Positions 22,068 to 58,800 of a stretch of DNA of 64,000 bases are shown in pieces. This DNA comes from Loxodes magnus (lineage: Eukaryota; Ciliophora; Karyorelictea; Loxodida; Loxodidae): contig CAMPDV010001323.1 of the NCBI GenBank assembly GCA_946699065.1, positions 1 through 64,000 of the forward strand, given 5' to 3'. Positions within the stretch are counted from its first letter, which is position 1, and the number at the start of each line of letters is the position of its first letter. The translations under genes and the position numbers were made by a program. The notes under the pieces were generated by a model. It did no database searches, was not told the origin of the DNA, and saw only the letters and a program-made list of their open reading frames with translations.

Positions 22068-22790
22068 GTTTCTGCTATTAATAATCAACTAATAGAACCA
22101 TAGAGGTCTTCATAATTTTTAAAAATATAATCATTTTGGAATTTTTTTAAGAATTAGCTTTCTTTTTCTATCTTAACAGAAATTTAGCAACACCAAGATT
22201 TTAGTTTCTACAGCTATAATTTTAGATTCCAAGAAAAGATAATAGATTTTTAGCTTAGTAAAGAAAATAAAGATTTGATTTATTTAATATTAATAACTCT
22301 TTAAACAGTCTATAAACTTGTTAAAATAATAATATACTAAGCAATAAGATAATAAGCAAACGCTATTCATATTAATACAATAGAGATTAGTTATTTAATA
22401 AACTTTAAACTCTTAATATCAATATGATTAAAGGGCTTTATTACTTTAATAATAGCTTTAGTAATAGATAGTAAATAATAGTATTATAGGTATGTTTAGA
22501 GTAATCATTTTAATAATAATAACTTTAACTAAAGCTACTACTTATTTAAATATAATAGCTATTAACTTTAATTATGATAATAGATCATATTACATTAGAT
22601 TAAGTTACTTGCTTGATTTACTTTTAATCTAGTTTAACAAATCTTTTACCTAGTTTAATTTTTAAGCTGTTCTATTGTAAATAAAAGTTAAAGTGGTTCT
22701 TTAATTTACTGTCTCTTTAATTCGATCTTTAAAGATAATTTATAAATAATTAAAAGATTTGATAATTACTCTATCTTAAGCTTTTGAAAG
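22068..22790. other. AT-rich spacer
   Basis: AT-rich DNA between the possible membrane protein gene (+) and the kinase region (-). No motif seen. The two neighbours converge here, so it may hold two 3' ends. Confidence 0.45.
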
Positions 22791-34628: not shown

Positions 34629-34740
34629 ACAGAGACTTGTACGTGACATGCGGACTCAGTTTACTCTATAGCGATCTCTCTGAACCAGAAATGGATTGTC
34701 TCTGCAAGTTCAGATAAGACGATCAAAGTCTGGGATTTCT
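34629..34740 (+). pseudogene. Orphan WD40 repeat unit, copy of the kinase-WD40 unit
   Basis: About 110 bp closely match the units of the gene at 46.4 kb: ACTTGTAC..., CATGCGGACTCAGTTTACTC, CCAGAAATGGATTGTCTC and AAAGTCTGGGATTTC, encoding HADSVYSIAIS...QKWIVSASSDKTIKVWDF. It is a circularly permuted single unit: it begins in the end of a preceding repeat and stops before the QTGSC linker. A TGA replaces the Gly codon before HAD. The two variable residues are Tyr and Ser, and Tyr occurs in none of the five repeats of the main gene at that first position. It follows a run of T and is followed by AT-rich DNA, so it is a dispersed fragment. Confidence 0.9.
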
Positions 34741-34744
34741 ATAC

Positions 34745-36590
34745 GTATTTTTTTTTAATTTCAAGTTATTACTTTTTTTTCTTTTCTTTTTTTCTAATAT
34801 TTAACATTTTTTTTTCTAAAAAGTTTTTACTTTTTTATTTAAATTTTTTTTTCATTATAAAGCCTTTAACACATCTGACGAATCAATTTTTAACTTTTAT
34901 AACAATAATGTTTTTTTTCATTATTCTAAATTTTTATTTTTATCCATTTTATTGGCTACTTTTCGTTAATTCCAACTCTTTATTTTTTTCATTAAAAAAA
35001 AAACAAAAACTTTAGCAATTTGATTTTACTGATTTTTTATTTGTAAAACTTTTTAAACTACTTTCTAATTTATTTAACTTTTATTATACTTTATTACTTT
35101 TTTAATAACTTGCTTTTATTTATATTTAGATTCTTATAAATAAGAATTGAAAACTTTTTTTTAATTTTCAATTTAGCTTTTTTAAGTAAATCACTTTGTA
35201 TTTATAGATTTTAATTTTTCTTTTTATAGAAAATTAATGATAATATTAATAATATTTTGATCCTTAACATTTCTGATTATATCTTGTTCATAAGTTGATT
35301 CATAATGATTAAGTATTTCTTCACTTGTTAAATATTAGCATATTCAAAGTTAATGATAAGTCTTACAAGATATATTTAAATATTAAACTAGATGATTTTT
35401 CTTAAATCTTGATAAATACATATAAGTTTTTTTATTTCGATCTAAAATGATCATCTTTATCCAATTTAGATTTGTAATATTCATCGTTTAATATTAAATT
35501 AATAGCTAGAGACTTAAAAAGTTCTTTTATCCTTGCGAATTAGCTATTATTTAAATAATAGATTTGCTTCAAATTTACTTTTAAAGGGTATATTTAAATC
35601 AATATCTTCTTTTTTCTTTATTTTTTGCCTTTTAATATTATTTCTTATTATTGCCAATCTAACTTTATCTTTATGAATTCGCTCAAGTTTATTTAAAATC
35701 CGAAGAAAATATTTCATTTAAAGCAAAGGAATATTTGTCTATTCCTTTAGATATTGAAACTAAATGAATGCAAAAGGTTGTAATTTAAGCAAGTGATTAT
35801 CTAATTTTTGAAGTATTATAATCTTTGTGATATTTAATTTCCATTGTTTAGAAATCTTCTCTGTATTAAGAGTGACTAAGTTATTATCATTGAAAACCTA
35901 GAAATTTATATATTTACCTTACATTTTACTAATATATTTTTATTGCGATTTCTCTCCTTATATCTATAGACTCTATTAAATTTTATAATAACTAATTCAA
36001 GTTTTATGTATAAAAAAGTCTTATGATTTTACTTCCTAAACCTAGTTATTATTTAGAAGATTTAATTTTTAGCTTTTACATCTTTTTGTTATTTCTCTAA
36101 CTAATTTAAATTTGATTATTCATTTATAAGTATTAATTTCCTAACTATCTTTAAAATTATGATATCAAATTTTAAATCGTTTTTCCTATTTTTTTAGGAG
36201 TTAACTAAGAAACTATTTATGGTTTTTTTGTTATTTCACCTCAAAAATTTGATTTTTTCTATATAGAAAAATTTAATTATTTATGCATGTGTTTATAGAT
36301 CTTCATAGAACATACTTTCATTTAATAATACTATAGTTAAGCATGCTAGGTATCTAATATCACTATTTATTATAAACAGTTTAAGAAACCTTCATTAATA
36401 CAACCTTTTAATTCTAATGTAGTAGTAGCCATCATATCTCTATCTGATCAATGGTTACACAGAGCCTTCATATTTTTCTTTAAACTAAAACACATAAAAG
36501 CGCTTTTTATTTTGATAAAAGTCTTCGGCTGTTTCTTGAGTATTGCTCTTCTCATCTTCTTATCCTATAACCTTTTTTCTATCTCCTTTA
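34745..36590. other. T-rich AT region, no gene recognised
   Basis: About 1.8 kb of strongly AT-rich, T-biased + strand with homopolymer runs. No motif on either strand. Confidence 0.5.
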
Positions 36591-36875
36591 TCAATCCACT
36601 ATAACCAAGATTTCTTCATCTAATAGAAATTTTTATCTTTTTATGTTAGTTTCATCAATTACAAGACGCTGAAATTTAGTATCTAGCATAAAGTAAAAAT
36701 TCCATAAAATATCTTAATTAAAAGGTCTAATTTCCAAAAGCTTAGCTATTTATTGCTTCGCATAAAACTAATTATCTAATTTATTCTTTTAATGCTTCTT
36801 TATTTCTTTCTAGTGTTCTCTATCTTCTAAAAATACTCTTCTTGAGTAAAGTATTACTGTAATTAAAATACTCAT
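36591..36875 (-). CDS. Small coding-like ORF, unknown, 94 residues
   Basis: ATG 36875 to TGA 36593-36591 is 94 codons with no internal TGA, TAR as Gln. The product reads as a mixed soluble protein (IAKLLEIRPFNQDILWNFYF, ending LLDEEILVIVD). It lies head to head with the + gene starting at 37073, 197 bp away, so the two could share a promoter region. A longer gene continuing past the TGA, if that codon is Trp, is possible. No family recognised. Confidence 0.35.
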
Positions 36876-37072
36876 CCTTCGTTTAATTTTGTTGATGTCC
36901 TATTATATACTTTATTTAGTATCTGATTTAGTTTTAGTTAAATATGAATAGGAATATAAGAGCTTAAAGTCGTTATCTTAAGAGAATTATACTATCTAGT
37001 TAAATCCTTAATTCTAAATAACTTTATAGAAGATAAAGTATCTCACTGCTAGAAAAAGGCTTTAGAAGCTAA

Positions 37073-39634
37073 ATGGTTAGAGTGAAAGTAGAAAAAATTA
37101 TCTGGAAAGAAACTAAAGAATCGCTTGAAAATTTTTAACCTTTGCAGTTATAAGAAACAGGAGTCTATTAATAGCAAGCTTCGAATTAACTCCTTTGATA
37201 GTAAATTGTTTAGCATCCACAAATTAATTAGAGGAAAACTATAATAAAGTTGCAAGTTAATTGACAGGAAATATCTGAAAACATTGAAATGGTTTGTGGC
37301 AATAACTGGAAATAAAAATTTAAATACCAGAAACTTCAAAATTAAAAACTCAGATCTATCGAATCTAAAAGAAATTATGAAGAGAGGGAGTTAAATAAAA
37401 AGCTTGGAAAGATAAAAGAAGAAACAGTGTTGGGTATCTATTTAGTTAAATTAATAAATCTATTCCTTTAAACTCTTATAATAAGCTCTATTTATAACCT
37501 TTTAATTAACTCAATAGATTATCAATGCTTCTATATCTCTCTTTTAGTAACTAATAATAGCATTATATTAAATTAAGAAGCAAAAACTAATTTCTCACTT
37601 TAATAATATAATAGTTAAATGTAATTAAGAAACATAAATAATGAGACTAGGATTAATAAAAGAGATCTAATAAAAAATTTGAACTAAAGCTTAATAATAA
37701 ATAGTAGAAGGCTATTTAATTAAAGAAATTAAGTAATGTTTAAATAATGCTATAGTCATTACTAATTAAATAATGCTCTAATTGTATTAGCCAAGCTTAC
37801 TTATTTCACTTTAAATAAAAAATAAAAGATACAGCTGAAAAAATAGAAAACTTAGAGATCAACTTATGATTCTTATTTACTCTTAGCTCTTCATAAGCTG
37901 ACTGAGAAATGGGCTTAATTTCTCTCAACTTAGTACTAATGATTAAGCTTAAGATATTAAAGAGATAAAAAATCAGAGTTAACAAATTAGAGTGATAAGG
38001 ATAAATAATAAGCATAAAAAACTACTCAACCCTAAATAAACAATTTATTCATCCAGACTTTTTTAAAAAATACTGGAAAGTATTGAAACTAAAAGAGAAA
38101 TAGAATCGATTGAGAGGATAATGTATAAACTTTGACGGAACTTCAAATGCATAAAATACTCAGAAAAAAAGCAGATTAAGCAGTTAGGGATAAATAAAGA
38201 TAGCTCTTTTATCAATACGTATTATTATTCGAGCGAAAGCGAAAAACTTAAGAAAATTCTTTAGGATTCGCTCAATAAAATTTTAAAATGCTATAGAAAA
38301 TTTAAGAAAAATAAAAGAATAGTTGCAAAACATTAAAATAGTTTTTCCTTTAACTGGAAAAGTATAGAAAAAAGTGATTTATGAAAGAAGCAATAAAAAT
38401 ATGGGCAAAAATTCAAATAAAGCGCAGATTCATATGAGACTAAATTAGATAATTAATCTAATGATTTCAAAAACAATTTTGTATTTTGCATTCATAAGGA
38501 AAAAATGCAGAACGTATAAGAAAAAACATTATAGAATCAAAGTAAATTTCGTAATAAATCTATGAAAACACCAAAAATTAACTTTTATCCTTCCAAAAAA
38601 GAAGATTTTAAAGAAACTAGTTTTAGTGTGAAATTCTTAAATAATATTTACCAATAGATTTAAAAGGCATAATGAAATTAATAATAGTGGGCAAATTTAC
38701 AATTTTAAAGTAAATAAATATAAATAAATGGTTATAAGTAAATAGTAGCCAGTTTTATTTAGTAATTAAAAGTCTAAATTAGAGATTTAAATTAAACTTA
38801 AAGAAGGATTATAAAACTAAAATATTCTTTTAGTAATCTCATTATTAAAGCCACTATTTTAATTAGAATCTTTAATAATCTTAATTGTCTAGTTACCTTT
38901 AACAGCATTTCAAATAAATATTCACTTATTATTATTTAGATTCTAGTAAGTCATATTGCTATTATTATATTCATTAATACCTAATAATAATTCCCTTGTT
39001 TGAGATAATAATACTGCTTAATTTAAGCAAGAATATTTGTAAAGGAGAGCTTTAATCTTAAAATAAAAGGAAATTGTCTTTAAAATTTTAAATGCAAATG
39101 AAACTGACAGAAGCTAGAGATATGAAGTCTTAACCAAGAAGTTACTATATCTAAAAAGAAAAAACTAATAATGCATAAAGTCTCCTATTATTATGGCTAT
39201 TTAGATTGATAGCTAATAATCTTAAAATTCTTTATTTATAAATGTATGCTCTTTTATTAATCATTATTGCAAGTGAATAATCTATCTTCCAAAAGTCTTT
39301 AGTAGAAGAAAACATAAGTATTATATAATTTATGAAGTTGGTAAAAGATTTAAAAATAATGATTTATAGAAACTTTCAAAAAGCTATTATAATAGAGGTA
39401 TATTTAGCAAAAAAAACAAATAATAGGAATCTATGTAATAATAGAGAAAAGTCTAACTAGTATAAGATATTATATTTATATAGTAACGATTCTTCATTTC
39501 ACTTTTATAATAAATTATTTAAACAAATACACTTTAAACATTTACTCTCTTATTTGTTTTATATTAACTACATTTTAGTTCAAGAGTTTTAGATAAATTT
39601 GGGAAAACATTATAAAAAAGACAAAAATATATGA
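37073..39634 (+). CDS. Long coding-like ORF, unknown protein of ~853 residues
   Basis: ATG 37073 (MVRVKVEKIIWKETKES) opens a frame whose TGA codons at 37940, 38462 and 39632 are all in register. With TAR as Gln and internal TGA as Trp it runs to TGA 39632-39634. The last 389 codons (38465-39631) contain no TGA, where about six are expected from composition, which supports real selection on the frame at least there. The first third has regularly spaced Trp residues in a Lys/Glu/Gln-rich context (NWQEISENIEMVCGNNWKQ), vaguely like Myb/SANT repeats, but I would not assign it. The part around 38.65-39.0 kb is very AT-rich and could be intergenic, giving two genes. Confidence 0.42.
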
Positions 39635-39639
39635 AATAA

Positions 39640-40150
39640 AAATTTAGCAGTATAGATAATAACCATTAGAGATAGATTAATATTAAACTTAAAATTCTAC
39701 AGTTTAATTAAGATATTTTTATACTATTTTATCTATAAATCTAAGCAAATAAGTATATTAGCATAATTAATGAAGGCTCTTATATATAATTCTATCAACA
39801 AGTAGTCTTTTAATTAGGTTTAATTTTTTCTACCTTGGTAAAATAATAATTGTTTCCCTTTTCTGTCTAAAAATGATAATAATTCTCTTTATTGGTTGTG
39901 GCTTTTCATCTTTTTATTTTAAGTTCGACAGTTGTTAAAAAATACAGACTCTTCTGTATTTTTAAGAATCATTTTAGAAAATTATTTTTCTGTTCTATCT
40001 TTAATGTCAGTAAGTTAAAAACTTAATGTCTCAAATTTGAATTTCTTATTGCTTTAGAGAAGAGAGAATTAGTTCTAATCCAATAAAAAACTTTAATATT
40101 TAACATTCTTGTAATATTTATAGCTTATACTATAAGAGTTACATTATATC
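39640..40150. other. AT-rich spacer between converging genes
   Basis: About 500 bp of AT-rich DNA between the stops of the + gene at 39634 and the - gene at 40151. No motif. Confidence 0.45.
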
Positions 40151-42540
40151 TCATTAACTAAACAGATAAACTTTTTAATTTTATTGATAAATGCTTTATA
40201 GTTGTGATTATAGATTCCCTATGCAAGTTAAGTCTAAGCCAAGATTCAATTAATTGCTTTTCGTAGAACTAAATAGATTTTAAGAATGTTCTAAGATTAT
40301 GTTGATTGTACTTTTTTTAATTAAAATTTAGGAGAATAGGGTTTATGTTCTATTGGGTTACTAAAGCATTCTATTGTTTCTCTATATCTTAGAAAGTTTT
40401 AAGATTTCTCCTTTACAAGTTTAGCCTAAAGATTTTCTTTCCAAGGACTTGATTGACTGATTATGTAATTTATCTTATATTTATTCCCTTTAGATTGAAC
40501 CATCAATGCTAGTAGGACTTAAGTAAATGTCTTATGATTGCAAATTAAAGCTCTTAATATTTTTCTTGATACCCAGAGAGATTCCTTTATTGCTATAATC
40601 TTATAGATTTTAATAATTTACTTAAAAGCTAGATTTAAACATGTTTTATGGTTCTTTAAGGTTCTATATTTTGATAATAAAATTGAATTTAAAATTAAAG
40701 AGCGAAATTTAAAGAATAAAGGGAGGTTGAATCGTTAATGAATAGCTACAACAAATAATTATGATTAAAAACTGAAGAGAAAATTCAAGCTAAAGAAAGG
40801 GAAATAAAAATGGACTAAAGATGCCTTGATTGGGGTATCTAAAGATTAAGAACTTTATCATGCGTAATATTCTTGAAACTTTAGTTAATGAATTAACTAG
40901 ATTTTCTTAAATTTGCTATTTTGTTTATTGATGTGGAATCTTAAGCTAGCCTTATACTACATAGCAAGGGTATTTTGAAGCAATATTTATCTCTCAAAAC
41001 CTCTTCTTTATAACTCACTCACTCTTGAAAAAATTTTGCTACTATAATATGGTTAAGCAACTATTAAGGTTTTAATTTTCTTCTAATGCTTGGTATTCTA
41101 AAACTGACTAAAGAAGAAAAAGAGAAGAAGATTCTGTAATAATCTCAAAGCTCAAGGCGATAAATTTAAGTTGAAATTCGCTTTTTTAGTTCTGTTATTT
41201 AGTTAATAAAAATTATTTCTATTAAAGAATTTACTGAGCAATAGATTCTTCGACTCAACTATTTATTCTTCCTAGGTTATTGAATGAAATTCTAGAAGTT
41301 TCCATTAAGTTTAACGTATTTTTATCTTGCTAGCTTTGAATAGCTTAGCAATCTTAGTTTTCGTTTCTGTATTTATTAGCCCTGAGCTATTCATTTTAAG
41401 TAAGCACGCTTACATTCTTATTGAGCTTAGTCTTTATTCTCACAGCTTATCGGAAAGAAACATTTGTCTAAGTATTTATATACTCTGCTAAACTGCTTTC
41501 TGCTTTAACTATTCTTCTAAGAAGATGAGATGAATCAAATTTTGCTTGGCAAATTTTTGGCAGACATCTACTCAATTAGCTAAAAGAATCTGCAAAGAAA
41601 GACTATTCTCTTTAAAAATAAACTTCTTAAGTAGTCCTCCTATATCCAGGAAATATATACCTCTAATGACTTTCTTCTCTTGGTGTTTGATCGTTTCAGA
41701 GAATAGCTGTTTTTTTGCTTGAAAAGTTAGATTATTAATTATAAATCAAGGATAGTTAGTTAAGACACAATACCAAAAGTAAGATTTTCTCTTAATTAGA
41801 TTTTTAATTTCCTCACGCCTACCAACATATTAATACCTTTTAACAGAAATTTTCTCTTCTTTTAATCTTCAAACATCGAAATTTTTTCTTTACTTAACTT
41901 ATGAAAATGGAAAACTAGTTAGATTTCTTAAATTTCTATAAATCTATGCTCAAAAATTCTAATTTGCAATATTCTCAAATTTCCTTGTAAAATACTTACC
42001 AGTTAGTACTAATTAATAAGCATTTTCTTTCTTAGATCAATTTTATAATGCTTAGTCTTTTTGTTTAATTTTAGCTCTTTTTAGCTTAGTTATCTTAGAT
42101 ATTTCAAAGTAACTATTTTATCAATTTTTTTCAATCTCAAGTCTTGGATCCTGCCAAGTATTTTTTAATTCTAGCTTTAACTATTTTTCTATTTATCTTC
42201 AATAAAATGATTGAGGTAATAAATTTCTGCTATATACTGGGTATAATCTTTATTTCCTCAATAAGACTTAATCTGAGCTTCCTATCTCAAAAAAGCTTTA
42301 AAAATATCCAGAGAAATTGAAGCTTTAGAAAAATGAGAGGACTACTTAAGTCTTAAAATGTTAAGTCAATCTTTAAGCTATAAATTGGTTCTTAGCACTC
42401 TTACTGAGATTACTATACACTGTCTTACTAAAAATCTTCATCTCTTTATCTTAATCTTATTTTGATTTTATGGGATAGAAGCTTCTAAAAGTCTAGTAAA
42501 GTATCATTATCGTATTACCTTAGCTGATTAATAATTTAAG
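40151..42540 (-). CDS. Large coding-like ORF with a 16-nt intron, unknown protein
   Basis: On the minus strand, after a candidate intron at 41999-41984, the frame runs 610 codons to TGA 40153-40151 with about six internal TGA codons, none of them in the last 281 codons. Before the intron a different frame reads convincingly (for example DYTQYIAEIYYLNHFIEDKQ) back to about 42.5 kb; removal of the 16 nt joins the two exactly. The start is not fixed; ATG 42441 is in a third frame. The protein is Gln/Asn/Ser/Lys-rich with a long polar C-terminal tail. One segment (ISFNNLGRINSWVEESIAQQ) resembles the start of PAS domains, which are abundant in ciliate signalling proteins, but this is a weak impression. 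Confidence 0.5.
41984..41999 (-). other. Candidate 16-nt intron
   Basis: On the minus strand GTAAGTATTTTACAAG has the ideal 5' splice consensus GTAAGT and ends in AG. Its removal links two protein-like frames. Introns of 15 to 16 nt are known in heterotrich ciliates (Stentor, Blepharisma, Condylostoma), so the length is biologically plausible. Confidence 0.45.
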
Positions 42541-45460
42541 TGACTCTATGCCTTTTTTTATAAAATTTCCCTCAAACTTAAGATATTTTTATTTATAAAG
42601 TGAAAGTTAAATTAAAGCATAAATAATGGATTTTAATAACTTACATAAATAGCAATAAGATAAAATTAATCTTTAGTTTAAAATAGTTATTAAATACTTG
42701 CTTAACCTTTTAGTTCAGCTTTTAAAGTTAATCATTCAATTATTAATGTGACTACTAATAATCATAGTACAGTTAAAATTAAACAAGGTTTCATTTTAAG
42801 TAGTTTCTTTTGTTATTATTTCTAAATGATTTCCCTTAATAGTTCAGCTTCATTAGTCTATTTCTTATATAGTTCTTATTGCATCTTGAAACTCTAAAGT
42901 TAGTATCTAATATTAATTATTTAGCTCTTTTTTCTTTTGTTTTTTATATCTTTACATTATTATGAGCTTGCAAAATGATCTCATAGATATGCTTTAAAGA
43001 TTATCTTTATTATTACTAATTTATTCATTTTATCTTAAAATTAGTCTAAAGGCCTTTGCTTATACAACCTTGTTACAGGTTTATTTATAAAAGATTTTTA
43101 TTTTTTCCTATTAAATGACAAGAAGTTAGCAAGTAGCCTATAGATATTTAGCAATTCTTTTAAATTTATTAGTTATTCAAAATTTTCAGGTCCTTAATAA
43201 ATGAACTCAAAAGGAGCTTTCTAATTTTACAAATATAACTTAAAATAATTATTTTAAAATTTATTGGAAATAGTCTTGGTATAATGTAAAAAACTTATGA
43301 TCTAAAGGTTAAAAATAATTTAGTTAGAGCTAAAATATTGAAAACATTAGCATCATGTTCTTTTAATTTATTTATGTTTTTTTTAGAGCAATTTACTTTT
43401 TGATAAATGGTATCATTCTCATAGCAACTTTTATTTTTTTGTTTTTATTAATTAAAAAGCTAATTCTAATTTCTTCTCTTCTCTTCTCTTCTCTTTTTAT
43501 ATTATATTTAATTTTTATTTAATTAACACCCTTAAGAATCAAAGTTAGCAAAAATTTTGAACTTCAATTATTAACAAAAAAGAAATTAAATCAATTTATT
43601 TCTAAAGAATTATTTCTTTATGTTTTGCTTATTAATTATTTAATTAACTAAATTAAAGTCAAATGTTAAAAATATTCAACTTTTTTTTAAATAATAAAGG
43701 TTATAATTCCATGACTGTTGTAAATTTCTTAAACATATCAATATATTTTTTTTAAAAAGAGTTTTAAGAAAACATGATTAAAATATCTATTTTAATATAG
43801 TCAAATTATTTTTAGGTAAATTAGATTAAAGTTAATTATTTAACTTCAATTTTATGATCTTATTAAATTAATTTTTTTTAAGTGAATTTTTTTGTAAATT
43901 CTTTCTTTATTTTACGTATATCTATGAAGCATTTTTATGGTTTTAAAATCTATAATAATAGTTATTTTGATTTTAATATCTCTTATTTTTTATCTTTTAA
44001 TTAGCTTATTTAAACTTGTAATGTAAATATTCAAGCTTTTAATTCATAAGCTTTATTATTCACTCTGGAAGTATAATTAAGTTTTAATATATATGAAGAA
44101 TTCTAAACAATTAATTATTATAAATTAATTAGTGTTAGTTGTATAATTATTCCTATTAAATTTAATAAGATCTCAAACATATCTCAAGAAATATTAACCT
44201 TTTATTTATTATTTGATATTTGTTAAAGACAAAGAGGTTGTCAATTTTAGTCTTAGATGAGCTTTTAAATTTTTTAGGTTTTTATTCATTCTATTTTTCA
44301 TATAGTAATTTTTAAATTTTTATATAGAGTTAAGTTTGAAAAAAAACAATTTAATATTTATGTAAGTGATCTTTGATTTTATTAGACTTTATTTATTTGA
44401 AGTTAATAATTTTTTTACTGAAAGTATGTCTTCTTTATAATACACCAATTTTTAGCATTTTATTATTTTAGTTATTAATAATTATCTATAATTGGTTATA
44501 AGAATATTATTAATTTTTTATTAATTTTTACATTCTCTTTTCTAAATAATAGAGTATCTAATTAATACTTTTTATACATTTTGCATTTAATTTTTTTTAA
44601 TTATCTTTTTATTAATTAGTATAAGAGTTATATCAATTTAAGTTAGATTTTTAATGGTTTAGAATCATATACTTTTAAGAGCTTTATTAATTTATCTATT
44701 TTGCTATTATTAGTTCTTTTGGTACATTTTATTAATAGAATTTAATTAAAAATTTACTTTTTTTTTGAAATTAAGTTTTTCTAAATTAGTTCAAGATAAA
44801 TTAAATCTAATTATTTTCTGGAGTTATGATTTTATTTACTATTTATAAAATTTTACTTTTAGGAAGTCTATCTAATAATTATGATAAATATTAGATAAAC
44901 TTTAAATTATAGCTATACAAATGTTTTAGTAATTATCTTCAATTTTTAAATATTTTAATACTTATACAATTCCTTTCTGTAATTTTGCTTTTAATTTAAT
45001 TTAGTTGCAGAATTTAAGGAAATTCTATTTGTTTATTTCTTTAATTAATTTTGTTCTTAGCAATATGAATTAGTTATTTTATTATTAGCTAATTCTTACA
45101 AGTCAATTTTCATGAGTTTTTCTTTTTATTTATAGAAGTTTATTAATTTATATGAGTTTATGATTTTAATCTTTATTTTTAAATTGATTTCAAATTTTTT
45201 TTTTAATGTTGTGATTTTTTTTATCATAATGAATATCTTAATTATTTCAGGTTGTATAGTTAGCATTGATTAAAAGTTAGGATAAATTTTGTTTTTTTAA
45301 GTTTAAGTTTTTTCATAAAGATCCTGCATATTTATTTACCTAAAATTTATCCTCATTTTATTTTAATTATTATTTATTGTAACTAACGCAAAAAAATATT
45401 ATTCATTTCTGCTATTTTTTTTAATATTTAAGAAATTATTTTACGTAAAATTATAAAAAA
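42541..45460. other. AT-rich region upstream of the kinase gene
   Basis: About 2.9 kb of very AT-rich, T-biased sequence with many homopolymers and a TCTTC microsatellite near 43476-43497. No gene or conserved motif seen. Its right end must contain the promoter of the kinase-WD40 gene; the bases just before the ATG are AAAAAA. Confidence 0.5.
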
Positions 45461-47303
45461 ATGGTTTCGGCAATAGATTAGGATTACATAATTAAAGGAT
45501 CTGTAATTCAAAAATTCGAAGAAATAGCCAAAGGAGGTTACGGAGTAATTTACAAAGGTCTAATGCAAGGAAGAATAGAGGTAGCTATTAAAGAGCTATA
45601 TAATCAAAATTTAACTCCAAAAGCTAGATAAGAGTTTGAAAATGAAACTGCGTTAATGTGCAAAATGAGGCATCCAAATGTAATTACAGTTTATGGTTAC
45701 TGCTAGTCTCCATTGAGTTTAGTAATGAAGTTCATGCCTCGATGTTTATTGCACATAATTCATAGTAACTAAGAAATGCCTTGGGATTTACGATATAACA
45801 TAAGTTTAGACATTGTCTAAGGTTTATAATATATCCACGAAAAAAATATTATTCATAGAGACTTAAAGAGTTTGAATATTTTATTGAATAATAATTATAA
45901 AGCCAAAATTACTGACTTTGGTTTGTCAAGAATTAGAACAGAGTCCAAATCAATCTTAACCAAGTCAGAAGAAGGAACGGTTCGTTGGATGGCGCCTGAG
46001 ATAATGAGTTCTAGACCAAAATATAGTGTCTTGTCTGACATTTTCGCTTTGGGAGTCACGTTCTGGGAGATAGCAGCTCGTAAAGTACCTTTTGAAGATG
46101 CTAAGCCTGAATTTATAAGAGAAGACATCAGGGCAGGAGAACGCGAAGAAATACCAGAAGACTGTCCAATAGAATATCAGCAAATAATAAAAGGATGCTG
46201 GTAACAAATTCCAACTGAAAGAACTAACTTGCAGCAAATTTAAAATTAACTACTGAAACTAATAAAAGAATTTAAAACTTAATCCGCGTAACCAGATTTG
46301 CAAAATCTTAAACTAACATCACAGCAATAAAATTTAGCGCCTAAAGAAGAAAATAAAACATCAATACAAGTGTAAAAAATATTCGAAATTTAGTACGACA
46401 AAGCTCAAGGTAATTCTTAATTAATTTAGACTAAATTTTTTCGGGACATGCGGACTCAGTTTTATCTATTGCGATCTCTCCGGACCAGAAATGGATAGTC
46501 TCTGCTAGTGATGATAAAACGATCAAAGTCTGGGATTTCCAGACTGGAAGCTGTTTGAGGACTTGTACTGGCCATGCGACTCAGTTTGATCTATTGCGAT
46601 CTCTCCGGACCAGAAATGGATAGTCTCTGCAAGTTATGATAAGACGATCAAAGTCTGGGATTTCCAGACTGGAAGCTGTTTGAGGACTTGTACTGGCCAT
46701 GCGGACTCAGTTTTATCTATTGCGATCTCTCCGGACCAGAAATGGATAGTCTCTGCTAGTAAGGATAAGACGATCAAAGTCTGGGATTTCCAGACTGGAA
46801 GCTGTTTGAGGACTTGTACTGGCCATGCGGACTCATTTTAACTCTATTGCGATCTCTCCGGACCAGAAATGGATAGTCTCTGCAAGTTCTGATAAGACGA
46901 TCAAAGTCTGGGATTTCCAGACTGGAAGCTGTTTGAGGACTTGTACTGGCCATGCGGACTCAGTTTGATCTATTGCGATCTCTCCGGACCAGAAATGGAT
47001 AGTCTCTGCAAGTTGGATAAGACGATCAAAGTCTGGGATTTCCAGACTGGACAGCTGATTCGGACTTTGGTTGGGCATTCTCATTATGTGTATAATGCTT
47101 TAATAACTTCGGATAATGGTTTTATAATATCGGCTTCTGATGATTCGACAATCAAAATTTGGAATTTTGCTACTGGTGAGTGTATATAGACATTGACGGG
47201 GCATGTTGGTTGGGTATGGACATTGGCATTGAGTGTGGACAACAAGTGGATATTATCTGGAGGTGGAGACAAGGTGTTGAGGAAATGGAGGATAGCGTTG
47301 TGA
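45461..47303 (+). CDS. TKL-type protein kinase fused to seven WD40 repeats
   Basis: Predicted intracellular protein kinase with a C-terminal beta-propeller. Exon 1 starts at ATG 45461 (preceded by A-run) and is open with TAR as Gln. Kinase landmarks: glycine-rich loop KGGYGVIYKG (24-33), VAIK with Lys44, HRDLKSLN with Asp134 and Asn139, DFG at 152-154, RWMAPE, DIFALGVTFWE and the final CW. All catalytic residues are present, and the loop sequence HRDLKSLN plus GTVRWMAPE point to the tyrosine-kinase-like group. A 20-nt intron (46410-46429) puts the first WD40 unit in frame. Units start at 46444, 46570, 46695, 46821, 46948, 47073 and 47199; the gene ends at TGA 47301. Units 1 to 5 are nearly identical in DNA; 6 and 7 are diverged. 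Single-base length changes in units 2, 4 and 5, all in homopolymers, break the frame: sequencing error or pseudogene. A diverged WD40 ligand sensor controlling the kinase is the likely design. Confidence 0.88.
46410..46429 (+). other. Candidate 20-nt intron in the kinase-WD40 gene
   Basis: GTAATTCTTAATTAATTTAG begins with GT, ends with AG and separates the kinase frame from the WD40 frame. Splicing gives ...DKAQ-D-QIFSGHADSV..., joining the C-terminal kinase tail to the first WD40 unit in register. The frame of both flanks is known independently from conserved motifs, so the frame change is real unless it is an indel error. Confidence 0.55.
46444..47072 (+). repeat. Five near-identical 126-bp WD40-coding units
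   Basis: Unit lengths are 126, 125, 126, 127 and 125 bp. The deviations are GCGGAC to GCGAC in unit 2, an extra T in unit 4 and a missing G in unit 5. Apart from these, differences cluster in two codons: the residue after GHADSV (TTA, TGA, TTA, AAC-like, TGA) and the residue in SAS-x-DKT (GAT, TAT, AAG, TCT, TGG-like). The rest is almost invariant even at silent sites, which indicates recent amplification or gene conversion. Confidence 0.9.
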
Positions 47304-47339
47304 GCAAGTATGAATTAAATATTTTTGATTAAGTTTTAA

Positions 47340-47545
47340 TAATTAAGTTATTTCTTTAGTTCTTTCTTTAAGTTCTTTCTTTAGTTCTTTCTTTAAGTTC
47401 TTTCTTTAAGTAAGTTATTTCTTTCTTTAGTTCTTTCTTTAGTTCTTTCTTTAAGTTTTTTCTTTAGATTTTTCTCTAAGTTTTTTCTTTAGATCTTTCT
47501 CTAAGTTTTTTCTTTAGTTATTTCTTTAAGTTATTCTTTAAGAAT
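47340..47545. repeat. Simple repeat of TTTCTTTAAGTTC type
   Basis: About 200 bp made of AGTTCTTTCTTT and TTTCTTTAAGTT variants begins some 37 bp after the stop of the kinase-WD40 gene. It probably lies in or just beyond its 3' untranslated region. The repeat is imperfect and drifts to TTTTTCTTTAGA forms on the right. Confidence 0.9.
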
Positions 47546-47569
47546 ATATTATTTGTCAAGTATATTTAA

Positions 47570-48330
47570 AAAGTTCAAAATTTTTCTTAAGTCTTTTATG
47601 TAAAAGGTTCTAGAAATATTTTTGAAGTATATAAGATTTTATCGTATTTTAATTTAAAAGGTTCTAGAAAATTTTTGAAGTATTTAAGATTTTATTAAAA
47701 GTATTTTAATTTAAAAGGTTCTAGAAAATTTTTGAAGTATATAAGATTTTATAAAGTATTTTAATTTAAAAGGTTCTAGAAATATTTTTGAAGTATATAA
47801 GATATTATAAAGTATTTTTATTTAAAAGGTTCTAGAAATATTTTTGAAGTATATAAGATATTATAAAGTATTTTATTTAAAAGGTTCTAGAAAATTTTTG
47901 AGTATAATAAGATTTTATAAAGAGGTGATTTTATTTAAAAGGTTCTAGAAATATTTTTGAAGTATTTAAGATTTTATTATAAAGTAATTTTAATTTAAAA
48001 GGTTCTAGAAAAATTTTTGAAGTATTTAAGATTTATTAAAAAAAATTTTATTTAAAAGGTTCTAGAAAAATTTTTGAAGTATTTAAGATATTATAAAGTA
48101 TTTTATATTTAAAAGGTTCTAGAAAAATTTTTGAGCTAATAGGATTTTTTAAAGAGGTATTTTATTTAAAAGGTTCTAGTATTTTTGAAGTATTTAAGAT
48201 TTTATTATAAAGTATTTTAATTTAAAAGGTTCTAGAAAATTTTTGAAGCTTCAAAATTTTTTAAAGAGGTATTTTAATTTAAAAGGTTCTAGAAAAATTT
48301 TTGAGGTTGTAAGTCTTTATATAGTTTTTT
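47570..48330. repeat. ~58-bp tandem repeat containing GGTTCTAGAAA
   Basis: About 13 imperfect units, each with AAAAGGTTCTAGAAA, TTTTTGAAGTAT and TAAGATTTTAT parts, spaced 53 to 62 bp. The palindromic core TTCTAGAA is kept in all but one or two units while the AT-rich spacers vary in length. The core equals the tail-to-tail form of a heat-shock element (nTTCnnGAAn), though a chance outcome of repeat amplification is as likely. Confidence 0.9.
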
Positions 48331-49934: not shown

Positions 49935-52900
49935 TATTTAAAAAATGAAGAAGAAAAGTAAGAAAAGAAGATAGAATATAAGTTTTAAGGAGTATGCTTG
50001 GAGATAAAAGAAGATAATATTTTGAAAAGTGAAAAAGAAAAGTAAGAAAAGAAGATAGAATATAAGTTTTAAGGAGTATGCTTGGAGAGAAAAGAAGATA
50101 ATATTTGAAAAGTGAAGAAGAAAAGTAAGAAAAGAAGATAGAATTTAAGTTTTAAGGAGTATGCTTGGAGATAAAAGAAGATAATATTTTGAAAAGTGAA
50201 GAAGAAAAGTAAGAAAAGAAGATAGAATATAAGTTTTAAGGAGTATGCTTGGAGAGAAAAGAAGATAATATCTTTGAGAAGTAGTAAGTATTTGAAAAGT
50301 GAAGAAGAAAAGTAAGAAAAGAAGATAGAATATAAGTTTTAAGGAGTATGCTTGGAGAGAAAAGAAGAGAAGTAATAAGTATTTAGAAAAGTGAATAAGT
50401 AAAGTAAGAAAAGAAGATAGAATTTCATTTTAAAGGAGTATGCTTTGAGAAGTAATAAGAAAAGTGAAGAAGAAAAGTAAGAAAAGAAGATAGAATATCA
50501 GTTTTAAGGAGTATGCTTGGAGAGAAAAGAAGATAATATTTTGAAAAGTGAAGAAGAAAAGTAAGAAAAGAAGATAGAATATCAGTTTTAAGGAGTATGC
50601 TTTGAGAAGTAATAAGTATTTAGAAAAGTGAAGAAGAAAAGTAAGAAAAGAAGATAGAATATCAGTTTTAAGGAGTATGCTTGGAGAGAAGAAGATAATA
50701 TTATGAAAAGTGAAGAAGAAAAGTAAGAAAAGAAGATAGAATTTCAGTTTTAAGGAGTATGCTTTGAGAAGTAATAAGTATTTAGAAAAGTGAAGAAGAA
50801 AAGTAAGAAAAGAAGATAGAATATCAGTTTTAAGGAGTATGCTTGGAGAGAAAAGAAGATAATATTTTGAAAAGTGAAGAAGAAAAGTAAGAAAAGAAGA
50901 TAGAATATCAGTTTTAAGGAGTATGCTTTGAGAGAAAAGAAGATAATATTTTGAAAAGTGAAGAAGAAAAGTAAGAAAAGAAGATAGAATATCAGTTTTA
51001 AGGAGTATGCTTGGAGATAAAAGAAGATAATATTTTGAAAAGTGAAGAAGAAAAGTAAGAAAAGAAGATAGAATTTCATTTTAAAGGAGTATGCTTGGAG
51101 AGAAGTAATAATATTATGAAAAGTGAAGAAGTAAAGTAAGAAAAGAAGATAGAATTTCAGTTTTAAGGAGTATGCTTGGAGAGAAAAGAAGATAATATTT
51201 TGAAAAGTGAAGAAGAAAAGTAAGAAAAGAAGATAGAATATCAGTTTTAAGGAGTATGCTTGGAGATAAAAGAAGATAATATTTTGAAAAGTGAAGAAGA
51301 AAAGTAAGAAAAGAAGATAGAATATCAGTTTTAAGGAGTATGCTTGGAGATAAAAGAAGATAATATTTTGAAAAGTGAAGAAGAAAAGTAAGAAAAGAAG
51401 ATAGAATATCAGTTTTAAGGAGTATGCTTTGAGAAGTAATAATATTTAGAAAAGTGAAGAAGTAAAGTAAGAAAAGAAGATAGAATTTCATTTTAAAGGA
51501 GTATGCTTGGAGAGAAAAGAAGATAATATTTTGAAAAGTGAAGAAGAAAAGTAAGAAAAGAAGATAGAATATCAGTTTTAAGGAGTATGCTTGGAGAGAA
51601 AAGAAGATAATATTTTGAAAAGTGAAGAAGAAAAGTAAGAAAAGAAGATAGAATATAAGTTTTAAGGAGTATGCTTGGAGAGAAAAGAAGATAATATTTT
51701 GAAAAGTGAAGAAGAAAAGTAAGAAAAGAAGATAGAATATCAGTTTTAAGGAGTATGCTTTGAGAAGTAATAATATTTTGAAAAGTGAAGAAGTAAAGTA
51801 AGAAAAGAAGATAGAATTTCAGTTTTAAGGAGTATGCTTGGAGATTAAAGAAGATAATATTTTGAAAAGTGAAGAAGAAAAGTAAGAAAAGAAGATAGAA
51901 TATCAGTTTTAAGGAGTATGCTTGGAGATAAAAGAAGATAATATTTTGAAAAGTGAAGAAGAAAAGTAAGAAAAGAAGATAGAATATCAGTTTTAAGGAG
52001 TATGCTTGGAGAGAAAAGAAGATAATATTATGAAAAGTGAAGAAGTAAAGTAAGAAAAGAAGATAGAATATCAGTTTTAAGGAGTATGCTTTGAGAAGTA
52101 ATAAGTATTTAGAAAAGTGAAGAAGTAAAGTAAGAAAAGAAGATAGAATTTCAGTTTAAAGGAGTATGCTTGGAGAGAAAAGAAGATAATATTTTGAAAA
52201 GTGAAGAAGAAAAGTAAGAAAAGAAGATAGAATATCAGTTTTAAGGAGTATGCTTGGAGATAAAAGAAGATAATATTTTGAAAAGTGAAGAAGAAAAGTA
52301 AGAAAAGAAGATAGAATATAAGTTTTAAGGAGTATGCTTGGAGAGAAAAGAAGATAATATTTTGAAAAGTGAAGAAGTAAAGTAAGAAAAGAAGATAGAA
52401 TATCAGTTTTAAGGAGTATGCTTGGAGAGAAAAGAAGATAATATTTTGAAAAGTGAAGAAGAAAAGTAAGAAAAGAAGATAGAATATCAGTTTTAAGGAG
52501 TATGCTTGGAGAGAAGTAATAAGTATTTGAAAAGTGAAGAAGTAAAGTAAGAAAAGAAGATAGAATTTAAGTTTTAAAGGAGTATGCTTTGAGAAGTAAT
52601 AAGTATTTAGAAAAGTGAAGAAGAAAAGTAAGAAAAGAAGATAGAATATCAGTTTTAAGGAGTATGCTTGGAGAGAAGTAGATAAGTATTTTGAAAAGTG
52701 AAGAAGAAAAGTAAGAAAAGAAGATAGAATATCAGTTTTAAGGAGTATGCTTGGAGAAGAAAATAAGTATTTAGAAAAGTGAAGAAGTAAAGTCAGAAAA
52801 GAAGATAGAATATCAGTTTTAAGGAGTATGCTTAGAGAAGTAATAAGTATTTAAAAAAGTGAAGAAGAAAAGTAAGAAAAGAAGATAGAATATCAGTTTT

Positions 52901-55800
52901 AAGGAGTATGCTTGAGAAGTAATAAGTATTTAGAAAAGTGAAGAAGTAAAGTAAGAAAAGAAGATAGAATATCAGTTTTAAGGAGTATGCTTTGAGAAGT
53001 AATAAGTATTATGAAAAGTGAAGAAGAAAAGTAAGAAAAGAAGATAGAATATAAGTTTTAAGGAGTATGCTTGGAGAGAAAAGAAGATAATATTTTGAAA
53101 AGTGAAGAAGAAAAGTAAGAAAAGAAGATAGAATATCAGTTTTAAGGAGTATGCTTTGAGAAGTAATAAGTATTAGAAAAGTGAAGAAGTAAAGTAAGAA
53201 AAGAAGATAGAATATCAGTTTTAAGGAGTATGCTTGGAGATAAAAGAATATAATATTTTGAAAAGTAAGTAAGAAAAGAAGATAGAATATAAGTTTTAAG
53301 GAGTATGCTTGGAGAGAAAAGAAGATAATATTTGAAAAGTGAAGAAGAAAAGTAAGAAAAGAAGATAGAATATCAGTTTTAAGGAGTATGATTAGAGAAG
53401 TAATAAGCATTTAGAAAAGTGAAGAAGTAAAGTAAGAAAAGAAGATAGAATTTCAGTTTTAAGGAGTATGCTTTGAGAAGTAATAAGTATCTAGAAAAGT
53501 GAATAAGTAAAGTAAGAAAAGAAGATAGAATATAAGTTTTAAGGAGTATGCTTGGAGATAAAAGAAGATAATATTTTGAAAAGTGAAGAAGAAAAGTAAG
53601 AAAAGAAGATAGAATATCAGTTTTAAGGAGTATGCTTTGAGAAGTAATAAGTATCTAGAAAAGTGAATAAGTAAAGTCAGAAAAGAAGATAGAATATCAG
53701 TTTTAAGGAGTATGCTTGGAGATAAAAGAATATAAAAGTGAAAAGAAAATTAAAGAAGATAGAATATAAGTTTTAAGGAGTATGCTTGGAGAGAAAAGAA
53801 GATAATATTTTGAAAAGTGAAGAAGAAAAGTAAGAAAAGAAGATAAATATCAGTTTTAAGGAGTATGCTTTGAGAAGTAATAAGTATTTTGAAAAGTGAA
53901 GAAGTAAAGTAAGAAAAGAAGATAGAATATCAGTTTTAAGGAGTATGCTTGGAGATAAAAGAAGATAATATTTTGAAAAGTGAAGAAGTAAAGTAAGAAA
54001 AGAAGATAGTATTTCATTTTAAAGGAGTATGCTTTGAGAAGTAGATAAGTATTTAGAAAAGTGAAGAAGAAAAGTAAGAAAAGAAGATTGAATATCAGTT
54101 TTAAGGAGTATGCTTTGAGAAGTAGTAAGTATTTAGAAAAGTGAAGAAGTAAAGTAAGAAAAGAAGATTGAATATCAGTTTTAAGGAGTATGCTTGGAGA
54201 TAAAAGAAGATAATATTTTGAAGAAGAAAAGTAAGAAAAGAAGATAGAATATAAGTTTTAAGGAGTATGCTTGGAGAGAAAAGAAGATAATATTATGAAA
54301 AGTGAAGAAGTAAAGTAAGAAAAGAAGATAGAATTTCAGTTTTAAGGAGTATGCTTGGAGATAAAAGAAGATAATATTTGAAAAGTGAAGAAAAAAGTAA
54401 GAAAAGAAGATAGAATATAAGTTTTAAGGAGTATGCTTGGAGAGAAAAGAAGATAATATTTAGAAAAGTGAAGAAGTAAAGTAAGAAAAGAAGATAGAAT
54501 TTAAGTTTTAAGGAGTATGCTTTGAGAAGTAATAAGTATTATGAAAAGTGAAGAAGTAAAGTAAGAAAAGAAGATAGAATTTCAGTTTTAAGGAGTATGC
54601 TTGGAGATAAAAGAAGATAATATTTTGAAAAGTGAAGAAGAAAAGTAAGAAAAGAAGATGAATATAAGTTTTAAGGAGTATGCTTTGAGAAGTAATAAGT
54701 ATTTATGAAAAGTGAAGAAGTAAAGTAAGAAAAGAAGATAGAATATCAGTTTTAAGGAGTATGCTTGGAGATAAATGAAGATAATATTTTGAAAAGTGAA
54801 GAAGAAAAGTAAGAAAAGAAGATAGAATATAAGTTTTAAGGAGTATGCTTGGAGAGAAAAGAAGATAATATTATGAAAAGTGAAGAAGAAAAGTAAGAAA
54901 AGAAGATAGAATTTCAGTTTTAAGGAGTATGCTTGGAGATAAAAGAAGATAATATTTTGAAAAGTGAAGAAGTAAAGTAAGAAAAGAAGATAGAATATCA
55001 GTTTTAAGGAGTATGCTTGGAGAGAAAAGAAGATAATATTTTGAAAAGTGAAGAAGAAAAGTAAGAAAAGAAGATAGAATATAAGTTTTAAGGAGTATGC
55101 TTTGAGAGAAAAGAAGATAATATTTTGAAAAGTGAAGAAGAAAAGTAAGAAAAGAAGATAGAATATCAGTTTTAAGGAGTATGCTTGGAGAGAAAAGAAG
55201 ATAATATTTTGAAAAGTGAAGAAGAAAAGTAAGAAAAGAAGATAGAATATAAGTTTTAAGGAGTATGCTTGGAGAGAAAAGAAGATAATATTTGAAAAGT
55301 GAAGAAGTAAAGTAAGAAAAGAAGATAGAATTTCAGTTTTAAGGAGTATGCTTTGAGAAGTAATAAGTATTTTGAAAAGTGAAGAAGTAAAGTAAGAAAA
55401 GAAGATAGAATTTCAGTTTTAAGGAGTATGCTTTGAGAAGTAATAAGTATTTAGAAAAGTGAAGAAGTAAAGTAAGAAAAGAAGATAGAATATAAGTTTT
55501 AAGGAGTATGCTTTGAGAAGTAATAAGTATTTTGAAAAGTGAAGAAGTAAAGTAAGAAAAGAAGATAGAATATAAGTTTTAAGGAGTATGCTTGTAGATA
55601 AAAGAAGATAATATTTTGAAAAGTGAAGAAGTAAAGTAAGAAAAGAAGATAGAATTTCAGTTTAAAGGAGTATGCTTTGAGAAGTAATAAGTATTTTGAA
55701 AAGTGAAGAAGAAAAGTAAGAAAAGAAGATAGAATATAAGTTTTAAGGAGTATGCTTGGAGATAAAAGAAGATAATATTTTGAAAAGAGAAGAAGAAAAG

Positions 55801-58800
55801 TAATTAAAGAAGATAGAATATAAGTTTAAAGGAGTATGCTTGGAGATTAAAGAAGATAATAATTTGAAAAGTGAAGAAGAAAAGTAAGAAAAGAAGATAG
55901 AATTTCAGTTTTAAGGAGTATGCTTGGAGATAAAAGAAGATAATATTTAGAAAAGTGAATAAGTAAAGTAAGAAAAGAAGATAGAATATCAGTTTTAAGG
56001 GGTATGCTTGGAGATAAAAGAAGATAATATTTTGAAAAGTAATTAATTAAGATAGAATATAAGTTTTAAGGAGTATGCTTTGAGATAAAAGAAGATAATA
56101 TTTTGAAAAGTGAAGAAGAAAAGTCAGAAAAGAAGATAGAATATCAGTTTTAAGGAGTATGCTTGGAGATAAAAGAAGATAATATTTTGAAAAGTGAAGA
56201 AGTAAAGTAAGAAAAGAAGATAGAATTTCAGTTTTAAGGAGTATGATTTGAGAAGTAACAAGTATCTAAAAAGTGAATAAGTAAAGTAAGAAAAGAGGAT
56301 AGAATTTCAGTTTTAAGGAGTATGATTTGAGAAGTAACAAGTATTTAGAAAAGTGAAGAAGTAAAGTAAGAAAAGAAGATAGAATTTCAGTTTTAAGGAG
56401 TATGCTTTGAGAAGTAATAAGTATTTAGAAAAGTGAAGAAGTAAAGTAAGAAAAGAAGATAGAATTTCAGTTTTAAGGAGTATGCTTTGAGAAGTAATAA
56501 GTATTTTGAAAAGTGAATAAGTAAAGTAAGAAAAGAAGATAGAATTTCAGTTTTAAGGAGTATGCTTTGAGAAGTAATAAGTATTTAGAAAAGTGAATAA
56601 GTAAAGTAAGAAAAGAAGATAGAATTTCAGTTTTAAGGAGTATGCTTTGAGAAGTAATAAGTATCTAGAAAAGTGAAAAAGTAAAGTAAAAAAAGAAGAT
56701 AGAATTTCAGTTTTAAGGAGTATGCTTTGAGAAGTAATAAGTATTTAGAAAAGTGAAGAAGTAAAGTAAGAAAAGAAGATAGAATTTCAGTTTTAAGGAG
56801 TATGATTTGAGAAGTAATAAGTATCTAGAAAAGTGAAGAAGTAAAGTAAGAAAAGAAGATAGAATTTCAGTTTTAAGGAGTATGCTTTGAGAAGTAATAA
56901 GTATTTAGAAAAGTGAATAAGTAAAGTAAGAAAAGAAGATAGAATTTCAGTTTTAAGGAGTATGCTTTGAGAAGTAATAAGTATTTAGAAAAGTGAATAA
57001 GTAAAGTAAGAAAAGAAGATAGATCTTCAGTTTTAAGGAGTATGCTTTGAGAAGTAATAAGTATCTAAAAAGTGAATAAGTAAAGTAAGAAAAGAGGATA
57101 GAATTTCAGTTTTAAGGAGTATGATTTGAGAAGTAATAAGTATCTAGAAAAGTGAATAAGTAAAGTAAGAAAAGAGGATAGAATTTCAGTTTTAAGGAGT
57201 ATGATTTGAGAAGTAATAAGTATCTAGAAAAGTGAAGAAGTAAAGTAAGAAAAGAAGATAGAATTTCAGTTTTAAGGAGTATGCTTTGAGAAGTAGTAAG
57301 TATTTAGAAAAGTGAATAAGTAAAGTCAGAAAAGAAGATTGAATATCAGTTTTAAGGAGTATGCTTGGAGATAAAAGAAGATAATATTTTGAAAAGTGAA
57401 TAAGTAAAGTAAGAAAAGAAGATAGATCTTCAGTTTTAAGGAGTATGCTTTGAGAAGTAATAAGTATTTAGAAAAGTGAAGAAGTAAAGTAAGAAAAGAA
57501 GATAGAATTTCAGTTTTAAGGAGTATGCTTTGAGAAGTAATAAGTATTTAGAAAAGTGAAGAAGTAAAGTAAGAAAAGAAGATAGAATTTCAGTTTTAAG
57601 GAGTATGCTTTGAGAAGTAGTAAGTATTTAGAAAAGTGAATAAGTAAAGTAAGAAAAGAAGATAGAATATCAGTTTTAAGGAGTATGCTTTGAGAAAAGT
57701 AGATAATATTTAGAAAAGTGAATAAGTAAAGTCAGAAAAGAAGATAGAATATAAGTTTTAAGGAGTATGCTTGGAGATAAAAGAAGATAATATTTTGAAA
57801 AGTAAGAAAAGAAGATAGAATATAAGTTTTAAGGAGTATGCTTGGAGATTAAAGAAGATAATATTTAGAAAAGTGAAGAAGTAAAGTCAGAAAAGAAGAT
57901 AGAATTTCAGTTTTAAGGAGTATGCTTGGAGATAAAAGAAGATAATATTTTAAAAAGTAATTAAAGAAGATAGAATTTCATTTTAAAGGAGTATGCTTTG
58001 AGAAGTAATAAGTATTTAGAAAAGTTAAGAGGAAAAGTAAGAAAAGAAGATAGAATATCAGTTTTAAGGAGTATGCTTGGAGATAAAAGAAGATAATATT
58101 TTGAAAAGTAATTAAAGAAGATAGAATATAAGTTTAAAGGAGTATGCTTGGAGATTAAAGAAGATAATAATTTGAAAAGTGAAGAAGAAAAGTAAGAAAA
58201 GAAGATAGAATTTCAGTTTTAAGGAGTATACTTGGAGATAAAAGAAGATAATATTTAGAAAAGTGAATAAGTAAAGTAAGAAAAGAAGATAGAATATCAG
58301 TTTTAAGGGGTATGCTTGGAGATAAAAGAAGATAATATTTTGAAAAGTAATTAATTAAGATAGAATATAAGTTTTAAGGAGTATGCTTTGAGATAAAAGA
58401 AGATAATATTTTGAAAAGTGAAGAAGAAAAGTCAGAAAAGAAGATAGAATATCAGTTTTAAGGAGTATGCTTGGAGATAAAAGAAGATAATATTTTGAAA
58501 AGTGAAGAAGTAAAGTAAGAAAAGAAGATAGAATTTCAGTTTTAAGGAGTATGATTTGAGAAGTAACAAGTATCTAAAAAGTGAATAAGTAAAGTAAGAA
58601 AAGAGGATAGAATTTCAGTTTTAAGGAGTATGATTTGAGAAGTAACAAGTATTTAGAAAAGTGAATAAGTAAAGTAAGAAAAGAAGATAGAATTTCAGTT
58701 TTAAGGAGTATGCTTTGAGAAGTAATAAGTATTTAGAAAAGTGAAGAAGTAAAGTAAGAAAAGAAGATAGAATTTCAGTTTTAAGGAGTATGCTTTGAGA

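Follow-up and report, generated by a model that had tools for sequence, protein, structure and literature searches.

A Loxodes kinase-propeller family with hypervariable WD40 contact codons and linked unit arrays as a candidate reservoir of diversity

The kinase-WD40 gene on the plus strand of this Loxodes magnus DNA, which the assembly shows with frameshifts, belongs to a large ciliate family that couples a TKL-like kinase to a WD40 propeller. From comparison of genes and arrays, we are inclined to read the family as recognition kinases that are reshuffled by gene conversion, with long arrays of WD40 units as a reservoir. Five blades would be held near-identical by unit exchange and the residues on their top face kept highly diverse. 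Recognition of variable partners would most likely fall to the propeller, and signalling of its outcome to the kinase. New specificities would most likely arise through gene conversion between units, both from gene to gene and between genes and arrays. Arrays lying about 9-11 kb upstream of certain members may donate units, presumably in the direction from array to gene.

The window, meaning the whole stretch of 64,000 nucleotides analysed here, lies on contig C1323 and carries the gene in two exons (45461-46409 and 46430-47303, plus strand). Exon 1 (45461..46409; 949 bp) encodes, by Pfam, a TKL-like protein kinase domain and a linker. A predicted 20-bp GT..AG intron (46410..46429), which recurs in sister genes, separates the kinase from the propeller. 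Five near-identical 42-codon WD40 units (46447..47057) are variable at codons 11 and 37, and the translation then gives two divergent blades (47058..47303) that complete a seven-bladed propeller and end in a TGA stop at 47301-47303. The near-identity of five adjacent 126-bp units, as originally predicted, was confirmed by Tandem Repeats Finder (4.8 copies, 95% matches at 46447-47057) and by alignment of the five units. These start at 46447, 46573, 46698, 46824 and 46951 (spacings 126, 125, 126 and 127), and the tail of the last diverges as it runs into the two divergent blades. Besides codons 11 and 37, codons 9 and 13 differ, at the third base only. Successive units have Leu, TGA, Leu, Asn-like and TGA after GHADSV, and Asp, Tyr, Lys, Ser and Trp-like as the SAS-x-D residue, both as previously stated. 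Units 2, 4 and 5 each contain a one-base indel, the insertion in unit 4 being adjoined by a changed base; thus the window copy has no single reading frame.

The published MAC assembly of Loxodes magnus comprises 706 Mbp, and the organism uses NCBI table 27, where UGA is either Trp or stop (PMC11441545). Some sister genes encode a conserved structural Trp (QKwIVS) by TGA; in a species whose TGA is context-dependent, TGA within the window units is therefore very likely Trp, which would account for the two TGA residues of the original prediction. In-frame TAA and TAG codons are frequent among the kinase matches and were taken as Gln. A GT..AG segment of 20-21 bp was found at the kinase-propeller junction in 15 of 15 genes examined, and the mean length of Loxodes introns is 19.3 bp (PMC11441545). 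Excising the segment yields an identical in-frame junction in 14 of these genes, the linker of C462b having one extra base. Kinase and propeller are thereby predicted to be joined in one gene by splicing.

Exon 1 matches PF07714 (E 6.3e-59) and PF00069 (1.4e-51), and its Pfam matches are to kinase families only, with no NACHT domain. The motifs HRDLKSLN and GTVRWMAPE, which we take to resemble those of the TKL type, are the basis on which we read the kinase as TKL-like; among PDB sequence matches are CTR1, roco4 and B-Raf, with the top match labelled EGFR and tyrosine kinases at similar scores. An intact homologue on contig C9 differs from the window's kinase at 7 of 813 positions. The model of its propeller has seven blades and 28 strands (mean pLDDT 97.2, pTM 0.93), and its best Foldseek matches include designed repetitive propellers, 7big, 2ymu and the WD40 domain of PkwA (5yzv). 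A seven-bladed WD40 fold is predicted for the propeller of the family.

A genome-wide kinase search reduced 4,470 first-look candidates to 142 listed and scored matches, of which 22 were full-length kinase matches of 72% or more and are referred to as close genes; the propeller region of the more distant C5052 was also read. The linkage of kinase to WD40 repeats noticed in the window is borne out as a family trait by the 22 close genes among these matches. Over the stretches read, 19 of the 22 keep the propeller in a single frame (C1503 ends at a contig end), and the frame is broken in the window gene, C462a and C7785. Five variable units are present in 19 of 21 complete close genes, the exceptions being C7785 with four and C43b with six. 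Single propeller units show whole-codon length changes in C43a (129 bp) and C2113b (123 bp). WD40 repeats also lie downstream of all eight distant kinases sampled, some of which were partly read. Seventeen of the 22 kinases point toward the nearer contig end, which is only suggestive of a subtelomeric location for the family; Loxodes telomeres have eluded detection (PMC11441545).

Variation among genes was scored in 71 units of 126 bp from 20 genes, after C2113a and C512b had been dropped because their propellers are identical to those of C38a and C462b, and C5052 because it is distant. Codon 11 shows 11 residue types and codon 37 shows 13; codons 34, 13, 35 and 29 come next at 1.3-1.8 bits. 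Codons 1, 33, 39 and 9 are moderately variable (0.6-1.0 bits) and the remaining 32 fall below 0.5 bits, so that six codons stand out: 11, 13, 29, 34, 35 and 37. The prediction of two hypervariable residues per unit thus describes the window units and gives way to six codons family-wide. Amino-acid change is in excess at these six codons in the other copies, and variation is not spread evenly over the unit, either in the 71 gene units or in 797 units of 126 bp collected from arrays, a few of them from genes. In the C9 model, codons 35, 37 and 11 fall immediately ahead of strand a, at its beginning, or between strands b and c, positions that we assume to be on the top face. By our mapping these codons correspond to R1-2, R1 and D-1, the contact positions described for the WD40 top face (PMC3419727). 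All three contact positions are among the six, in keeping with the predicted concentration at upper-face sites, which extends beyond the two positions originally named.

The propeller has diverged faster than the kinase to which it is attached. Propeller regions could be compared in 23 gene pairs with kinases less than 6% apart: in 21 of them the kinases differ by 0.4-1.7% and the variable WD40 regions by 2.1-10.6%; the other two are identical in both. In seven non-redundant pairs, which were drawn from six genes and are not independent, pN is 0.26-0.39 at the six codons, 0.012-0.039 at the other codons of the five units and 0.002-0.009 in the kinase. The six codons have a high pS as well (0.21-0.55), so that their pN gives no case for dN/dS above 1. 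Outside the six codons, silent divergence reaches 0.05-0.17 in the propeller and a lower 0.006-0.036 in the kinase, consistent with either import by recombination into the propeller or homogenisation of the kinases. Exchange between genes is indicated by C9 and C462b, whose kinases are 77% identical as protein and whose propellers have a 172-bp exact tract in common; the window gene and C462a likewise have a 172-bp exact propeller tract in common. Given such gene-gene tracts across kinase groups, arrays need not be the chief donor.

The window gene belongs to a 13.4-kb conserved module (34634..48039, plus strand) made up of a WD40 site, an interval, the kinase-WD40 gene and the start of the 3' repeats. 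The module aligns with C9:16429-3155 at 93.5% identity over 13,459 columns, and the alignment starts at a single relic WD40 unit (34634..34739, end approximate, plus strand). This is the conserved upstream site at which other modules hold an array, and 4 of 69 backbone sites of the relic depart from the array consensus. A Pfam scan of the interval at 34.8-45.5 kb gave no match in 10 of 12 frame-halves (two minus second-half frames were excluded). Matches to the flank that adjoins the C9 array occur at 41 places, 27 of them 9.1-10.8 kb upstream, on the same strand, of 26 kinases among the 142 listed (two of these flank pieces belong to one kinase), and 21 of the 22 close kinases have it. Twenty flank sites were fetched, 19 linked to kinases and one at the far end of C9: two bear at least 11 WD40 units, one has four, seven have two, nine have a single unit and one has none. 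Arrays are therefore dispensable for the family, 16 of the 20 fetched sites having only one or two units. Reading also covered C9, C620 and the window, which brings the kinase-linked flank sites read to 22 of 26; of these 22, 21 border WD40 units. Near a module flank with four WD40 units, one frame of C9:1911001-1911400 resembles by eye the stretch right after the C25 kinase; no kinase is present there among the 142 listed matches.

Several other elements were noted around the module. Directly 3' of the kinase-WD40 gene lies a 57/113-bp AT-rich tandem repeat (47589-48304), and similar repeats, by eye, come after the C462a and C9 genes. A long 80/160-bp purine-rich satellite occupies 49937-64000, downstream of the kinase gene, and its apparent reverse complement was recognised by eye at sampled points 50-110 kb along C1362, past the WD40 array of that contig. 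At the other end of the window (1-1270) is an 86-bp tandem repeat with 96% matches and a period that is not a multiple of three. A partial second protein kinase domain lies on the minus strand at about 23107-23469 (PF00069, E 1.1e-19), and no other Pfam match above cut-off was obtained in six frames between 6 and 34 kb of the window. A weak match to a ligand-gated ion channel at about 21998-22381, also on the minus strand, fell below the Pfam cut-off.

A protein search also located the window-type WD40 unit in long tandem arrays. A 23-base core of the unit has 3,672 exact occurrences genome-wide, gene copies included, and the reversed control has none. Four modules (C9, C620, C1503 and C1832) have arrays of roughly 45-165 kb, and a fifth array, on C1362, lies elsewhere. 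Their extents come from fetched stretches and sampled points: the C620 array runs from about 16 to 180.6 kb, head to tail over a long distance as in satellite DNA; that of C9 from 16.4 kb to between 80 and 100 kb; that of C1362 from base 1 to between 30 and 50 kb; that of C1503 from 11.9 to at least 90 kb; and that of C1832 from 35 to at least 80 kb. The 5' flank of the C620 array had no match beyond itself and short repeats at other places. Among the collected units, 797 of 881 are exactly 126 bp (a few being gene units), and only 126-bp units were used for array counts (813 of 894). The diversity of the 797 falls on the same six codons as in genes and on nearby silent sites. Array pi is 0.32 at the six codons against 0.013 at backbone positions 1 and 2, the latter being lower than in genes (0.034).

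Some of the frame breaks in genes and arrays may have arisen in assembly. For the published assembly, alleles were collapsed at 96% identity and polishing used quality-filtered mappings (PMC11441545). Of 79 one-base indels in array units, 78 fall no more than one base from a polymorphic column (23 of 24 distinct ones; 52% expected; p 3e-6), as would fit a consensus of mixed copies. Frameshifts in the window and in the arrays are thus unreliable at face value and many may be consensus artefacts; frameshifts as proof of array silence were set aside for this reason. If copies were really mixed, the same reads could reveal variation within the sample. Misassembly of repeats may also lie behind some of the units described here.

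The clearest sign of exchange between gene and array comes from C9. Exact tracts of 312, 265, 251, 251 and 241 bp link the C9 gene with the array of its own module, at C9:17.2-22.3 kb. For comparison, 650-bp chunks of the other arrays, 60 from each, were set against the C9 array, with maxima of 130 bp for C620, 132 for C1362, 164 for C1503 and 131 for C1832; in an earlier control, none of 300 C620 and C1362 chunks exceeded 132 bp. Unit 2 of the C9 gene is matched within 1 nt by 19 of 83 gene-proximal array units and 4 of 341 distal ones (Fisher p 3e-11), and unit 3 by 9 of 83 and 3 of 341 (p 4e-5), the 27-kb boundary between the two sets having been drawn once the tracts were known. Distances to the nearest sampled array unit are 0 nt for gene units 1-3, 4 for unit 4 and 13 for unit 5, a polarity that favours transfer from array to gene; copying from gene to array could also have produced identical tracts. 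A long cis tract was sought in the C620, C1503 and C1832 genes, and these gave only 85, 70 and 76 bp against their own sampled arrays, so that such a tract is present in one of four array modules. The C6979, C462a, C462b and window genes have 172-201 bp in common with arrays on other contigs. These are weaker evidence, because arrays share longer exact tracts with one another, up to 445 bp between C620 and C1362 and 367 bp between C1503 and C1832 (about 134 kb of array sequence compared, the arrays being partly sampled). The original prediction that the propeller diversifies by repeat shuffling is backed in part, by units common to genes with different kinases; the linked arrays and the long exact tracts between one of them and its gene go beyond it, and its self/non-self or ligand-sensing part is a proposal.

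Other explanations of the arrays have to be weighed against a donor role. They could be inert satellites that expanded from WD40 units and recombine occasionally, beside propellers that are nonetheless diversified recognition domains; we consider this unlikely, and the foremost of the rivals. The four large arrays (C9, C1503, C1832 and C620) have closely related flanks, 97-100% identical to that of C9, a pattern suggestive of a single recent expansion and its later spread. In published Loxodes assemblies, low-complexity tandem repeats account for 231-359 Mbp (PMC11441545), and another long satellite lies in the window itself. The core residues W18, L26 and A40, picked post hoc, are changed at 100 of 2439 unit-sites in arrays and at 1 of 213 in genes, and the lack of a cis tract in three of the four array modules points the same way. 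On the other hand, only 3% of neighbouring unit pairs in the C9 array are identical, with a mean distance of 6.1 nt, the diversity sits on six codons with a backbone less diverse than that of the genes, unlike simple decay, and the long exact cis tracts tie the C9 array to its gene. It is very unlikely that the arrays are instead expressed as very long WD40 proteins or RNAs, with the variable codons selected there too. The exact 126-bp length of 797 of 881 units agrees with expression, as does the position of 78 of 79 indels beside polymorphic columns, which makes many frameshifts perhaps artefacts; a silent excess among private backbone variants (18 of 53, p 0.054) is suggestive only. Against this, the C620 array starts mid-unit in AT-rich sequence with no start recognised by eye, and some core-residue changes are commoner than in genes.

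The variable codons themselves might be accounted for in other ways. Young repeat duplication alone, with the variable codons as tolerant sites, is a reported cause of high internal identity in many WD40 proteins (PMC5587647), and pN about equal to pS at the six codons is what neutrality would give. This is nevertheless very improbable here, as the propeller codons outside the six are under constraint (pN 0.012-0.039), the sites that vary most are at contact hotspots, and units are common to genes whose kinases are 77% identical. A targeted mutator of the diversity-generating or hypermutation type, which would place indels and variation on or beside the same codons as found, is the least probable account of all. 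Private array variants at the six codons number 1 of 54, with no enrichment (p 0.002 overstates the depletion, since many changes are already common), and neither a reverse transcriptase nor a deaminase was matched by Pfam in the module interval (10 of 12 frame-halves). Ongoing targeted mutation at the variable codons was rejected on the count of private variants.

Reshuffling of recognition kinases by gene conversion, the reading preferred above, admits of a more specific form that we advance tentatively, at less than even odds. Here the arrays would be cis libraries of hundreds to more than 1,000 WD40 units, from which conversion rewrites single blades, a cassette-type combinatorial diversification that possibly serves mating type, self/non-self or prey/pathogen recognition. 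The kinase-WD40 family would thus offer a testable route into how protists recognise one another or other cells. Coding-type repeats that resemble satellite DNA could also be concealed from annotation by a tandem-repeat filter. No gene-linked array of WD40 units was described in the open-licence PMC titles and abstract starts among the matches listed, and no hypervariable WD40 repeats in ciliates were found in the open-licence PMC literature. The new element would be the array beside the gene, the kinase-WD40 combination and contact-site diversity being already known.

The closest parallel is the HNWD/NWD family of Podospora anserina (HET-E, HET-D and HET-R). As in the present genes, near-identical WD40 units are maintained by concerted evolution, a few hypervariable codons lie on the interaction surface, and units are exchanged within and between family members (PMC12222747; PMC4986451). 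The fungal proteins differ in having HET and NACHT domains before the sensor and about 11 repeats in functional alleles, against a kinase and seven blades here, and the excerpts of PMC12222747 and PMC4986451 mention no long unit arrays. With a kinase and no NACHT in exon 1, the Loxodes family is not a member of HNWD. Highly repetitive WD40 kinases of bacteria, of the PkwA type, also join kinase and WD40 in one protein, and contact-site diversity has been noted in highly repetitive WD40 proteins (PMC5587647). The combination of a TKL kinase with such repeats, at first thought undescribed, therefore has a bacterial precedent, although the available part of PMC5587647 has no multi-gene module with linked unit arrays. 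Another example is found in Tetrahymena, where LRR genes with 90-bp exons form ciliate repeat-domain families for which expansion by exon shuffling has been proposed, the youngest lying in pericentromeric and subtelomeric regions (PMC6564038). Those repeats are LRR rather than WD40, and their units are exons inside genes, not arrays beside them.

In silent-cassette systems such as VSG, vls and the immunoglobulin pseudogenes of birds, an expressed copy lies near many related copies and is altered by segmental conversion. The Loxodes modules are similar in placing a gene near many related copies, with kinases often directed toward the nearer contig end (17 of 22). They differ in that the donor role is putative, the repeat consists of one 126-bp structural unit, and a cis tract occurs in one of four array modules. 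Receptor diversification by unit reshuffling is known from fungal NLRs and, with silent donors, from antigens and antibodies. If the preferred reading is true, the same contact-site signature together with arrays of spare blades would extend unit reshuffling to a new receptor class and a new lineage.
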